Assembly: GCF_016722785.1 (NCBI RefSeq)
Contig: NZ_JAEQNE010000001.1
Coordinates: forward strand, 248,001-312,000
DNA length: 64,000 nucleotides
Direction of reading: 5' to 3'
Origin: Ramlibacter monticola
GTDB lineage: Bacteria; Pseudomonadota; Gammaproteobacteria; Burkholderiales; Burkholderiaceae_C
The translations under genes were made by a program, and so were the position numbers. Under the pieces are notes generated by a model, which saw only the letters and a list, made by a program, of their open reading frames with translations, did not search any database and was not told the DNA's origin. How positions within the stretch are numbered: position 1 is the first letter of the stretch; every line of letters starts with the position of its first letter. Shown here piece after piece: positions 39,720-52,362 of the stretch.

Positions 39720-42700
39720 ATGCAATCCCCCGCCATCGCCTCCGCCTCCGCCACCACGCTGGTCCACATCCTGAAGCAGCGCGCCGCGCTCACGCCCGAG
39801 CGCAATGCGTACATCTTCCTCGAGGACGGCGAGGACCAGGAGCGGCCCATCAGCTACGGCGAGCTCGATCGCCGCGCCCGCCTGCTGGCCGCCACGCTGC
39901 AGCAGCGCGTGCCGCAGGCCCACGGCAGCCGCGTGCTGCTGATGTACCCGCAGGGACTGGAATTCCTGGTCGCGTTCTTCGGCAGCCTCTATGCCGGCGC
40001 CACGGCGGTGCTGGTGTACCCGCCCACGAACGCCAAGATGGCGCGCCGGCTGGCGGTGATCGCGGCCGATTGCGACGTCGCGGCCGTGCTGTCGACCACC
40101 CACGTGATCGGCAAGATGACCCGCATGGCGGCCGAGGGCCTCTCCGAGCTGCCGTGCATCAACACCGACCTGCTCGACGCGGAACTCGAAGGCCGCTTCG
40201 TGGAACAGGACATCCGTCCCGAGCACATCGCCTTCCTGCAGTACACCTCGGGCTCCACGGGCACGCCCAAGGGCGTGATGATCAGCCACGCCAACCTGAT
40301 GGCCAACCAGCGGACCATCCAGGAGCTGTACCGCAGCGACGGCAACAGCGTGGTCGTCGGCTGGCTGCCGCTGATCCACGACATGGGCCTGATCGGCAAG
40401 GCGCTGCACCCGCTGTACCTGGGCGTGCCGCTGGTCTTCATGTCGCCGCTGCACTTCATGCAGCGGCCGGTGCGGTGGCTGCGAGCGATCGACAAGTACC
40501 GCGCCACGATCAGCGGCGGACCGAACTTCGCCTACGACCTGTGCGCCGCCAAGGTCAGCGACGAGGACCTGCAGGCGCTGGACCTCTCGTGCTGGACCAC
40601 CGCTTTCAACGGCGCCGAGCCGGTGCGCCGCGAGACCATGGAGCGCTTCTACCGCCGCTTCGCCGGCTGCGGCCTGCCGCCGCATGCGCTGATGGCGGTG
40701 TACGGCCTCGCCGAAGCCACCCTGATCGTCAGCGGCACGCGGCGCGACGTGCTGCTGGCGGCCGATGCCGCGACCGACTACATGCCCTCGGGCCACGCGG
40801 CGGCGTGGGACACGGTGAAGGTGGTAGACGTGGTGACGGGCACCGAGGCCCCGGAAGGCCGGGAAGGTGAAGTGTGGGTGAGCGGCCCCAGCGTCGCCGT
40901 CGGCTACTGGAACCAGCCCCAGGTGAACCGCGAGATCTTCCAGGCGCAGCTGGCGGATTCGCCGCTGCGCTACCTGCGCACCGGCGACACCGGCTACGTG
41001 CGCAACGGCTGCCTGCACATCACCGGCCGCATCAAGGACATCGTGATCATCCAGGGCCGCAACTACCATGCCGAGGACATCGAGTGGAGCCTCGCAAACC
41101 TCAAGGGCCTGCGCGCCGGCTGCGCCGCCGCCTTCTCCACCGACGAGGGCGGCAAGGAGCGGCTGGTCGTGGTGGCGGGCGCCACGGCCAGCGACCCGGA
41201 CGAGACGCGCAAGCTCGTCGCGGCGATGCGTGAAGCGATCTACGCCGACCACCAGCTGCCGCTCGACCGCGTGGTGCTGATCCGCCCGAAGGACCTGCCG
41301 ATGACCACCAGCGGCAAGGTGCAGCGCCGGCTGACCAAGAAGATGCTGCTGGCGGGCGAGTTCGAGGCCCTGCTCGACCAGTCCGGTGACGCCACGCCAG
41401 ATGCGGACCACGGCCGCTTCGTCGCGCCCGGCACGCCGGCCGAGCGCGAGCTGGCCGCGGTCTGGAGCCAGATCCTCGCGCTGCCGCTGGACAAGATCGG
41501 CATCCACGACAACTTCTTCGACCTGGGCGGCTCCTCGCTGACCATGCTGCAACTGTCCGACCGCATCCAGGCCAGCATGGAACTGCTGTTCCGCTATCCG
41601 ACGATCGCCGGCTACCTGTACCGCACCTCCGAGTACGAGTACCCCGACGTCGCGTCCGACATCCGCCTGCCGCCCCTGGCGCTCGACGAGAGCCTGACCG
41701 GCCGCACGGGCCTGACCATGGTGACCGGCGCGCACGGCTTCTTCGGCCTGCACTTCCTGCGCTCGATGATGAAGCGCAGCGACGACCGCTTCGCGCTGCT
41801 GCTGCGCGGCAAGGACGGCGAGAGCCTCGAGCGCCGCTTCGAGCAGGCCGTGGACTACTTCGGCATGCGCGCCGAGATCGACCTGGACCGGCTGGAATTC
41901 GTGGAGGGCGACCTGAGCAAGCCCCACGCCGGCATCTCCGATGCGGACTGGGCCTCGCTCGCGACCTGCCTCGACCGCATCGTGCACATCGGCTCGCACG
42001 TCAACAACTGGCTGCCCTACGAGGGCATCCGCCAGATCAACGTCGAGGGCACCCGCAGCCTGCTGGAGCTGGCCCGCACCGGCCGCCGCAAGGAGTTCCA
42101 CTACACCAGCACCAGCACCTTCTCGCCGCTGAAGGAGGACACCTCGGTGTTCGACGAGGACGACGAGATCGACCCGGGCGAGATCAACCGCTACTTCGGC
42201 TACGACATCAGCAAGTACGCGAGCGAGGCGATGTGCCGCCTGGCCCGCGCCGACGGCATCACCTGCAACATCTATCGCCTGGTGTGGGTGGGAGGGCACC
42301 TCGACACCGGCGTCACCAAGATGAACGACGGCCTCAACATCATGCTGCGCATGCTGCTGACGCTGGGCGTGTACCCGCAGGGCAACTACCTGCACGACGT
42401 GGTGCCGGTGGACCTGATGGCCGACGCGATGGCCTCGCTGGTCGGCAAGACCCCGAACGGCAACTACAACGTGACCAGCCAGTCACGGGAATCGATCGAC
42501 ATGAAGCGCATCGCCACGATGCTGCGCACCATGGGCTACGAGCTCACCGAGGTGAGCCGCGCCGAGTTCGTGCAGAGGCTGAAGGACTACCCCGCCGAGA
42601 AATGGGACGAGCACTGCCGCTCGTACCGGCAGCTCGTGATCCGGCTGTTCGAGGATCCGACGCCGAAGATCGAATCCTTCTACGACAGCCGGAACTTCCG

Positions 42701-51543: not shown

Positions 51544-52362
51544 ATGAACACCCGAGTCGATCCCCTGCAGGTCCACCTGTTCTGCCTCGACGCCTTGCGC
51601 GCGCAGGCGGGCGCCGTGAGCAGCGCCGAAGAGGAACTGCTGGACGTGGCCGGCGTCCGCTCGCCCGGCCGGCGCGCCGAGATCGTGTACGGGCGTGCCG
51701 CGCTGCGCGGCCTGCTGGCGAAGGTCACGGGCGCCCGGCCCGACGAGCTGCGGCTGCGGCGCGACGACCGCGGCAAGCCTTCCGCCGTGCTGGCCAGCGG
51801 CCAGCCCGTGCAGGCCTTCAACGTCTCCCATTCCAATGGCGTGCTGGCCATCGCCATCGGGCCGGACGCGCCCGCCGTCGGTGTCGACGTCGAAGGCCCG
51901 GCGCCGGGCCTGGCCCCCGACGTGGAGGCGCTGGCGCGCAGCCACTTTTCTCCCGCCGAACGCGCCGAGGTGCTGGGGGCCGCCGCCAACGAGCGCATGC
52001 GGGTCTTCATGCGGGTGTGGACGCTGAAGGAGGCGGTGCTCAAGACCACGGGCGACGGCCTGGCCCACCCGTTGCGGACGGTGGAAGTGAGTGGAGCCCG
52101 CGGCACCCTGCATTGCCAGCTGGGCGCCCAGCGCCTGCCGATCTATGCCCGCCACCTCCGCCTGGCCCCGGCCTGGCACCTGGCGGTGGCCCGCTACGGC
52201 GAGCTGCCGCCCGTGACGCTGCACTGGATGACGGCGCTGCCGGCGCTGGGGCCGAGCTCGCATGCGCACGCCGACGACCATGCCTGTCCCTCCTGCAGGC
52301 CGGTCGCGACGGCGGTGGCGGCGCGGGAAGCGGGTGCGGCGATGGAAGCGGCCTGCGCCTGA
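51544..52362 (+). CDS. 4'-phosphopantetheinyl transferase (Sfp type)
   Basis: 272 residues, GGAG before the ATG. Family motifs: FNVSHSNGVLAIAI, GVDVE at 113-117 with the magnesium-binding Asp115 and Glu117, and WTLKEAVLK at 159-167. It converts apo carrier domains to holo form; the two carriers of the megasynthase are the obvious clients. It closes the operon. The C-terminal 25-30 residues are an odd His/Cys tail (SSHAHADDHACPSC) not needed for the fold. Confidence 0.93.
   Translation: MNTRVDPLQVHLFCLDALRAQAGAVSSAEEELLDVAGVRSPGRRAEIVYGRAALRGLLAKVTGARPDELRLRRDDRGKPSAVLASGQPVQAFNVSHSNGVLAIAIGPDAPAVGVDVEGPAPGLAPDVEALARSHFSPAERAEVLGAAANERMRVFMRVWTLKEAVLKTTGDGLAHPLRTVEVSGARGTLHCQLGAQRLPIYARHLRLAPAWHLAVARYGELPPVTLHWMTALPALGPSSHAHADDHACPSCRPVATAVAAREAGAAMEAACA

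Follow-up and report, generated by a model that had tools for sequence, protein, structure and literature searches.

A six-gene operon of Ramlibacter monticola that appears to combine a fatty acid and an amino acid into a lipid and to move it toward the cell surface

A six-gene operon for the proposed synthesis and export of a lipid

An operon of six genes in Ramlibacter monticola appears, from the families of its products, to combine a fatty acid and an amino acid into a lipid and to move it toward the cell surface. The genes lie on the forward strand between positions 39,666 and 52,362 of the 64,000-nucleotide stretch that we analyzed (RefSeq assembly GCF_016722785.1, contig NZ_JAEQNE010000001.1, positions 248,001 to 312,000; hereafter the window). 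In gene order they encode a megasynthase, a fatty acid hydroxylase, a small membrane protein, an MMPL/RND pump joined to a LolA-like carrier, a DUF1302-like barrel, and an Sfp-type 4'-phosphopantetheinyl transferase (PPTase) (Table 1). The first four genes are separated by 14, 4, and 7 nt, the fifth overlaps the fourth by 4 nt (GTGA), and the sixth follows after 46 nt. An initial annotation of this DNA had described closely spaced genes in one direction with this content, and both the spacing and the family matches bear it out. It had counted seven genes; there are six open reading frames because the pump and the LolA-like carrier share one stop-free frame of 1,049 codons, in which an internal ATG at 49417 could still start LolA. 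Throughout, domains were called from Pfam matches at E<=0.01, NCBIfam models were judged against their own cut-offs, and signal peptides were assessed by eye and from hydropathy.

Table 1. Genes of the operon and the parts recognized within them, in window coordinates
Feature	Position	Strand	Description
Megasynthase	39666 (or 39720)..45521	+	1951 aa; Pfam, NCBIfam, and PDB matches
FAAL	~39753-41369	+	Megasynthase domain 1
ACP	~41463-41645	+	Megasynthase domain 2
Thioester reductase (TR)	~41721-42815	+	Megasynthase domain 3, residues 686-~1050
A domain	~42906-44333	+	Megasynthase domain 4, residues 1081-1556
PCP	~44424-44609	+	Megasynthase domain 5
TE	~44694-45470	+	Megasynthase domain 6
Membrane di-iron fatty acid hydroxylase family protein	45536..46603	+	355 aa; PF04116, 2.4e-25
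Small membrane protein	46608..47075	+	155 aa; PF08592 below cut-off; three hydrophobic stretches above threshold
MMPL/RND pump-LolA	47083..50232	+	1049 aa, one frame; PF03176 and PF17131
RND pump part	47083-49416	+	PF03176, two stretches
LolA-like part	49417-50232	+	PF17131, 5.3e-55; structures 9tp6, 3bk5
Outer-membrane barrel candidate	50229..51497	+	422 aa; PF06980 (DUF1302), 7.6e-8
Sfp-type PPTase	51544..52362	+	272 aa; PF01648, 1.4e-15

The megasynthase carries an internal thioester reductase

The megasynthase is formed, by Pfam, of an AMP-binding domain, a carrier, NAD_binding_4 (thioester reductase, TR), a second AMP-binding domain, a second carrier, and a thioesterase (TE). Among the 60 PDB matches listed out of 137, those that align best with residues ~30-568 include FadD23, FadD28, FadD32, and the fatty acyl-adenylate ligase 3pbk, and the adenylation (A) domain structures of nonribosomal peptide synthetases (NRPSs) align best past residue 1000. 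By these matches the first AMP-binding domain is nearer to fatty acyl-AMP ligases (FAALs) than to NRPS A domains, and the second is of the NRPS A type. NCBIfam FAAL models match the protein below their cut-offs (for example, PRK05850 at 448.6 of 775). The lipid-activating megasynthase of the initial annotation was correctly recognized and can be described more specifically as FAAL-ACP-TR-A-PCP-TE, where ACP and PCP are the acyl and peptidyl carrier domains.

The TR aligns to the TR of a polyketide synthase (PKS; 8v1x) and to MxaA (4u7w), both at ~1e-32. It precedes the A, PCP, and TE domains, so the protein is not an NRPS with a terminal reductase. No condensation domain was found in the megasynthase among Pfam matches at E<=0.01, and it thus lacks the make-up of an NRPS elongation module; at the same threshold neither a condensation nor a GNAT acyltransferase domain was found in any protein of the operon.

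We searched for relatives of this enzyme in one genome from each of 84,980 species, using peptide patterns from the TR region that require exact 8-mers, by which relatives may be missed. Among the best 80 of the 543 stretches obtained, three loci were 54-69% identical over the TR region, and the other matches covering at least 240 query residues were at 26-33%. The three loci, all from Burkholderiales, are in a Janthinobacterium lividum metagenome-assembled genome (MAG; L039), Oxalobacteraceae bacterium OM1 (L040), and a Limnohabitans sp. MAG (L041). Their full-length synthases are 63-65%, 46%, and 46% identical to that in the window, respectively, and the domain order is the same in all four genomes. 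In a class sample searched with a single TR query (E<=1e-45) the window's own genome was the only one of 369 with a match. The same was true of 399 genomes of the family searched with a TR profile (E<=1e-50), with no match in any of the five congeners listed there. On plasmids, 90 records matched, all below 60% identity, and the 20 that were listed were at 26-32%. Conservation across Burkholderiales, which the initial annotation named as a check, is not borne out. That annotation is right about what kind of operon this is, wrong in its gene count, and too broad about conservation.

Although the four synthases fall into subgroups at 46% identity, the TR glycines G688, G691, and G694 (GxxGxxG), the TR residues Y846 and K850 (Tyr-xxx-Lys), the TE GWSxG motif and histidine, and ten A-domain selectivity positions are invariant among them. 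Mean column identity is 76% in the TR region versus 69% in the whole protein. The ten positions, by GrsA numbering, read D-S-E-K-V-I-T-V-T-K. The aspartate at the first of these is kept, and the A-PCP-TE half is presumably amino-acid-specific. We take the lysine at the fourth position as no more than a hint toward Asp/Asn-like codes. Because all ten positions are identical, the four synthases probably load the same amino acid.

In the 24 next-best loci (L042-L065), an A domain lies before the TR in 21 (L042-L044, L046-L062, and L064). The distance between the two is 373-445 bases, about one carrier domain, in 17 of these and 1.7-1.8 kb in the remaining four. L045 and L063 have a TR without a preceding A domain, and L065 has no TR match. 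None of the 23 TR-bearing loci has an A, FAAL, or TE match after the TR, with sequence past the TR being short in some (370 bases in L046 and 856 in L059), suggesting that, of all the loci examined, these four synthases alone have an internal TR.

The gene block recurs in a Janthinobacterium lividum MAG

The J. lividum MAG contains the synthase, hydroxylase, small protein, pump-LolA, and barrel genes in the same order over two contigs. The first (L039) stops inside the hydroxylase gene, and the second (L120) starts further into the same gene and runs through the small protein and pump-LolA genes into the barrel gene. Adjacency across the break is thus inferred from the shared hydroxylase gene. 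Identity to the window is 64.5% for the synthase, 58-60% for the two hydroxylase pieces, 53% for the small protein, 66% for the RND part, 65% for the LolA part, and 50% for the barrel. Third codon positions are the most divergent in every gene compared, which is every gene except the PPTase gene; the stretch at the pump-LolA junction is less clear, with differing fractions of 0.43, 0.28, and 0.45 at codon positions 1, 2, and 3. GC content is 70% in the window versus 52-53% in the MAG contigs. These reading frames are not chance, since amino acid identity of 50-66% is kept and third positions diverge most across this difference in GC. The initial annotation had seen a set covering synthesis, tailoring, and transport, and lipid activation, an amino-acid-activating module, a di-iron hydroxylase, and the pump, carrier, and barrel are indeed kept together in this second genome.

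Pump and carrier share one reading frame

The pump part has both MMPL halves, the second with the motif GIGADYAIY at residue 678; a DY pair in the second half is a mark of RND/MMPL lipid exporters. It scored 249.9 on the NCBIfam HAE3 model, below the cut-off of 351.9, and far below cut-off on the HpnN, BstA, and MmpL3 models. The frame runs without a stop through a signal-peptide-like helix (hydrophobic stretch at residues 785-803) into the LolA-like part, which matches PF17131 best and DUF1329 weakly. The internal ATG at 49417 is preceded by a Shine-Dalgarno-like GGAGAA, and LolA could be started separately there. The pump-LolA gene of the J. lividum MAG is likewise one stop-free frame with an in-frame ATG and a purine-rich stretch upstream.

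In a sample of the phylum, 63 of 398 genomes, the window's included, matched the RND-LolA query at E<=1e-60. Among the matches listed, an uninterrupted frame spans the junction in two more genomes, from other families of Pseudomonadota (G915, locus L152, and G880, locus L153, the latter on a contig that starts within the pump), at 46-49% identity. Pump and LolA are adjacent separate genes in G907, G911, G1034, and G783, and in G1034 the pump itself is split over two frames. We did not count as fusions G1069, G851, and G436, where the match across the junction contains internal stops. In G971, G791, and G1136, frames exceed 1,000 aa and the match stops at the end of the pump. All four fusions (window, L120, L152, and L153) have, by eye, a signal-peptide-like helix with a small-residue motif (SRA, ASA, AQA, and AAA) before LolA, suggesting that the LolA part is periplasmic and may be cleaved off.

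We examined the genes beside close exporter relatives on six contigs (L152-L157) that were picked by exporter similarity. Four of these reach upstream of the pump, and L153 and L155 start within it. Exporter relatives at 46-51% identity stand beside lipid-type genes at three loci: an alpha-oxoamine synthase (AOS) adjoins the exporter at L156, a short-chain dehydrogenase/reductase and a GNAT-type acyltransferase adjoin it at L152, and the third is L154. Such neighbors (FAAL-PKS, AOS, and acyltransferase genes) hint, in a few cases, that the cargo of the closest exporter relatives is long-chain and often amine-bearing lipids.

The region at L154 (G907:C146, 371-12117), in a distant Pseudomonadota genome, encodes a synthase of 1936 aa with the order FAAL-ACP-KS-DH-ACP-AOS, then a cNMP-binding AOS protein and a GNAT protein, followed by RND and LolA genes (49% identity). 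It is a probable sphingoid-like lipid cluster with the window's type of exporter. The J. lividum MAG has a second cluster, with a looser RND-LolA-barrel set (L162; G665:C9, 3-15979), in which a TonB receptor, an acyltransferase-like gene, LolA, a DUF1302-like barrel, and RND stand beside a FAAL-KS-AT-KS synthase. Of three further regions, L159 has pump and LolA matches.

Proposed pathway and alternative explanations

We give an even chance to the proposal that the product of the operon is a long-chain lipid, built from a fatty acid plus an amino acid and exported as far as the outer membrane or past it. Homology supports the opening steps, in which the PPTase would arm the carrier domains and the FAAL would adenylate a free fatty acid and load it onto the first ACP. 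The internal TR, with its nucleotide-binding and Tyr/Lys residues kept, may then release the chain in reduced form, as a fatty aldehyde or a fatty alcohol; the tambjamine enzymes TamA and TamH offer a parallel for the aldehyde. The A-PCP-TE half, in which an A domain of the amino-acid type and the catalytic-type serine and histidine of the TE are kept, would join an aminoacyl group to the chain without a condensation domain. Transfer to the fatty alcohol catalyzed by the TE, or imine formation between aldehyde and amine, seems likelier than a plain amide. The simplest joined products would thus be a fatty alcohol esterified with an aminoacyl group or an N-alkyl amino acid derived from an imine, with an N-acyl amino acid as the conservative alternative. 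The hydroxylase would next hydroxylate the chain or head in the membrane, and the RND pump would lift the lipid from the inner membrane. An attached or co-translated LolA domain, located in the periplasm and either still tethered to the pump or set free in a one-to-one ratio to it, would ferry the lipid to the DUF1302-type barrel, which would pass it into or through the outer membrane. The gene content, the operon spacing, the domain order and invariant motifs of four genomes, the block in a second genome, the neighbors of related exporters, and the tambjamine precedent all argue for this pathway.

Several observations weigh against it, and the distribution of the exporter is foremost. Synthase and exporter occur together in two of the four synthase loci; in OM1 and the Limnohabitans MAG there is no RND-LolA match genome-wide at E<=1e-15. 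The co-conservation of synthase and transport genes, which the initial annotation made a test of its reading, thus stands for the window and the J. lividum MAG and fails for the other two genomes. This absence means that the synthase product need not be exported in this way. The exporter is variable, which counts against one obligatory synthesis-and-export unit and is the chief weakness of the earlier picture. Within the synthase, Pfam at E<=0.01 detects no condensation domain that would join the acyl half to the aminoacyl half, and the selectivity positions of the A domain yielded no substrate assignment. In the J. lividum MAG the block can be read as far as the barrel gene, in which the contig ends, short of where a PPTase gene would lie. 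The DUF1302 match of the barrel, at 32.2 bits against a cut-off of 23.2, is short and covers positions 138-192 of a 541-position profile, and that of the small protein to PF08592 is below cut-off. Lipid-synthase neighbors are also not universal among exporter relatives: the single scanned neighbor of the L157 pump (31% identity) is a fragment matching a TetR C-terminal domain, a looser set in G810 lies next to genes for an acyl-CoA dehydrogenase and a ThiF-like protein, and L160 and L161 have a pump match with no LolA or barrel match.

The genes after the synthase in OM1 and the Limnohabitans MAG encode, in this order, a small protein, the first of two Old Yellow Enzymes, a TauE permease, a PPDK_N/PEP-utiliser protein, the other Old Yellow Enzyme, a protein that looks secreted by eye, and a PPTase; in Limnohabitans an HlyD/AcrB pair comes after the PPTase. 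The Old Yellow Enzymes were scanned in OM1 and assigned by similarity in Limnohabitans. The models that the OM1 PPDK_N/PEP-utiliser protein matches (PEP synthase, rifamycin phosphotransferase, RedH, and PigC) score 400-337 bits, all under cut-off. The two Old Yellow Enzymes and the PEP-synthase/PigC/RedH-like ATP enzyme of this second synthase subgroup (L040, 13998-21239; L041/L130) suggest a different tailoring route to a related product.

The best-surviving alternative, which we regard as unlikely, is that the operon makes an ordinary N-acyl amino acid (a lipoamino acid or lyso-aminolipid). Acyl-AMP or acyl-ACP would react with the amine of the aminoacyl-PCP, the TE would hydrolyze the product, and the TR would be vestigial or an alternative exit. 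The FAAL and A-PCP-TE could suffice for this, and the sole named NCBIfam match of the hydroxylase is OlsE, which acts on ornithine lipids, at 52.8 bits against a cut-off of 475, too low for membership in that equivalog. The TR is unlikely to be vestigial, however, because conservation in its region equals or exceeds that of the full synthase. Nor was a condensation or GNAT acyltransferase domain detected in the operon at E<=0.01.

Stand-alone A-T-TE synthetases (T, thiolation domain) release cyclic or dimeric amino-acid products. The synthase might accordingly make two separate products, a free fatty aldehyde or alcohol from FAAL-ACP-TR and a cyclic or dimeric amino-acid product from A-PCP-TE, with the fusion serving co-expression. 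By its domains, either half could work without the other, and no domain that would join them is seen. We nevertheless consider this less likely still than the N-acyl amino acid, since the halves have stayed in one protein in every one of the four genomes, at identities down to 46%, and in two of these genomes the synthase gene is followed by those for a lipid hydroxylase and a lipid-type exporter. Least probable is that the exporter is an unrelated efflux set for solvents, terpenes, or drugs, like AmeABCD, and is only co-transcribed with the synthase: a DUF1302/DUF1329 (LolA superfamily)/RND set is described in Castellaniella monoterpene metabolism (PMC6394551), and two genomes have the synthase without this exporter, but the genes of the operon are tight and overlapping, the same block is present in a second genome, and such exporters are paired with FAAL or AOS synthases on several contigs.

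Returning to the proposed fatty acid-amino acid lipid, a stronger claim would be that it is a new class of exported lipid, with a one-protein synthase that combines reductive chain release and condensation-free joining of an amino acid, and with an RND pump and LolA carrier made as one polypeptide, either tethered or processed one-to-one. We hold this claim tentatively and think it somewhat likelier to be wrong than right.

Comparison with described systems

The closest precedent for the first half of the synthase is found in tambjamine synthesis, where PtTamA (adenylation-ACP) and PtTamH (transaminase-TR) convert a fatty acid to an aldehyde for amination, and the TamH TR is said to resemble acyl-ACP reductases (PMC9594044). 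The likeness is that a fatty acid would be activated onto a fused ACP and then released by a TR as a fatty aldehyde. By contrast, the TR in the window is fused to FAAL-ACP, A-PCP-TE follows it, and no transaminase domain was found in the operon by Pfam. The A-PCP-TR NRPSs, the arrangement in 21 of the 24 next-best loci, share the TR family at 24-33% identity, but their TR comes after an A domain and has no A, FAAL, or TE match later, whereas that in the window is internal, between ACP and A. As in FAAL-NRPS/PKS lipopeptide starters, a FAAL would feed a fatty chain into a multidomain enzyme (PMC11837247). Unlike those starters, the window has no detected condensation domain, and the main text of that review has no words starting with "reductase" or "aldehyde".

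Long-chain amino lipids are made by the PKS-derived sphinganine cluster SgaAB and other AOS lipid clusters, as described in passages of PMC12134224, and exporters related to the window's adjoin AOS genes at L154 and L156. However, no AOS or other enzyme of the aminotransferase fold was found in the operon, and the Sga passages do not describe this exporter type. Aminotran_1_2 was found in none of the operon proteins, nor in the TauD, BKACE, or PBP-family proteins downstream; the AOS or serine palmitoyltransferase expected of a sphingoid pathway is thus missing from this set.

The export genes resemble AmeABCD, which combines RND, a periplasmic protein of the LolA superfamily, and a DUF1302 outer-membrane protein (PMC6394551). 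Parts of this type are seen in the operon as RND, a LolA-superfamily protein, and a short DUF1302 match. Unlike AmeABCD and the MmpL, HpnN, and BstA pumps, the RND and LolA parts in the window are fused and share their operon with a lipid synthase; unlike AmeABCD, the LolA part is nearest to PF17131 and matches DUF1329 weakly.

No described pathway with this gene set, domain order, and pump-carrier fusion was found in the literature, as far as our search reached, in agreement with the initial annotation. Each part belongs to a known family, and the combination of FAAL-driven, NRPS-like lipid synthesis with RND-LolA-barrel export seems, from the genes, to be new. To our knowledge, the crossing of lipids other than lipopolysaccharide and lipoproteins to the Gram-negative outer membrane is poorly understood. 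With pump, carrier, and barrel encoded together and pump and carrier fused, the operon is a tractable case for lipid transit to the outer membrane, and its synthase would test whether an acyl-derived chain can be joined to an amino acid without a condensation domain.

Other genes of the operon and its setting

The hydroxylase has the histidine motifs HRFSH, HMVHH, and HEVHH. Its family is common, with 138 of 299 genomes of the bacterial family (the window's included) matching at E<=1e-30, and we therefore did not use it as a marker gene. The best identity to another protein among the matches listed from these genomes was 39%. The small membrane protein had no match in PHROGs. The barrel begins with what looks by eye like a signal peptide and ends in phenylalanine (...KYAF).

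Three of the four synthase loci include a PPTase gene, and the PPTases of OM1 and Limnohabitans are of another subtype (4PPT_N), which the window PPTase does not match at E<=1e-5. A match in the J. lividum MAG, 29-36% identical, is on another contig without barrel sequence and was not counted as part of the block. The window PPTase had one match in its own genome at E<=1e-5; we dropped the idea that it is the sole PPTase there, as the same query misses those beside the OM1 and Limnohabitans synthases.

Upstream of the operon, on the other strand, are DUF883 and hemerythrin genes. Base composition has no marked shift across the operon, leaving a recent island origin unsupported. A scan for promoter- and terminator-like sites gave zero of the former (0.7 expected) and four of the latter (4.3 expected). 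A phosphatidylethanolamine-binding protein (PBP) family gene (52533-53150; PF01161, 1.9e-33) lies 170 nt past the PPTase gene on the same strand and encodes, by eye, a lipoprotein-like signal. We excluded it from the gene count, yet it might belong to the operon. Beyond it, about 1.4 kb downstream of the PPTase gene, are genes for a TauD-type dioxygenase and then a beta-keto acid cleavage enzyme (BKACE) (53742-55755) that are probably unrelated to the operon.

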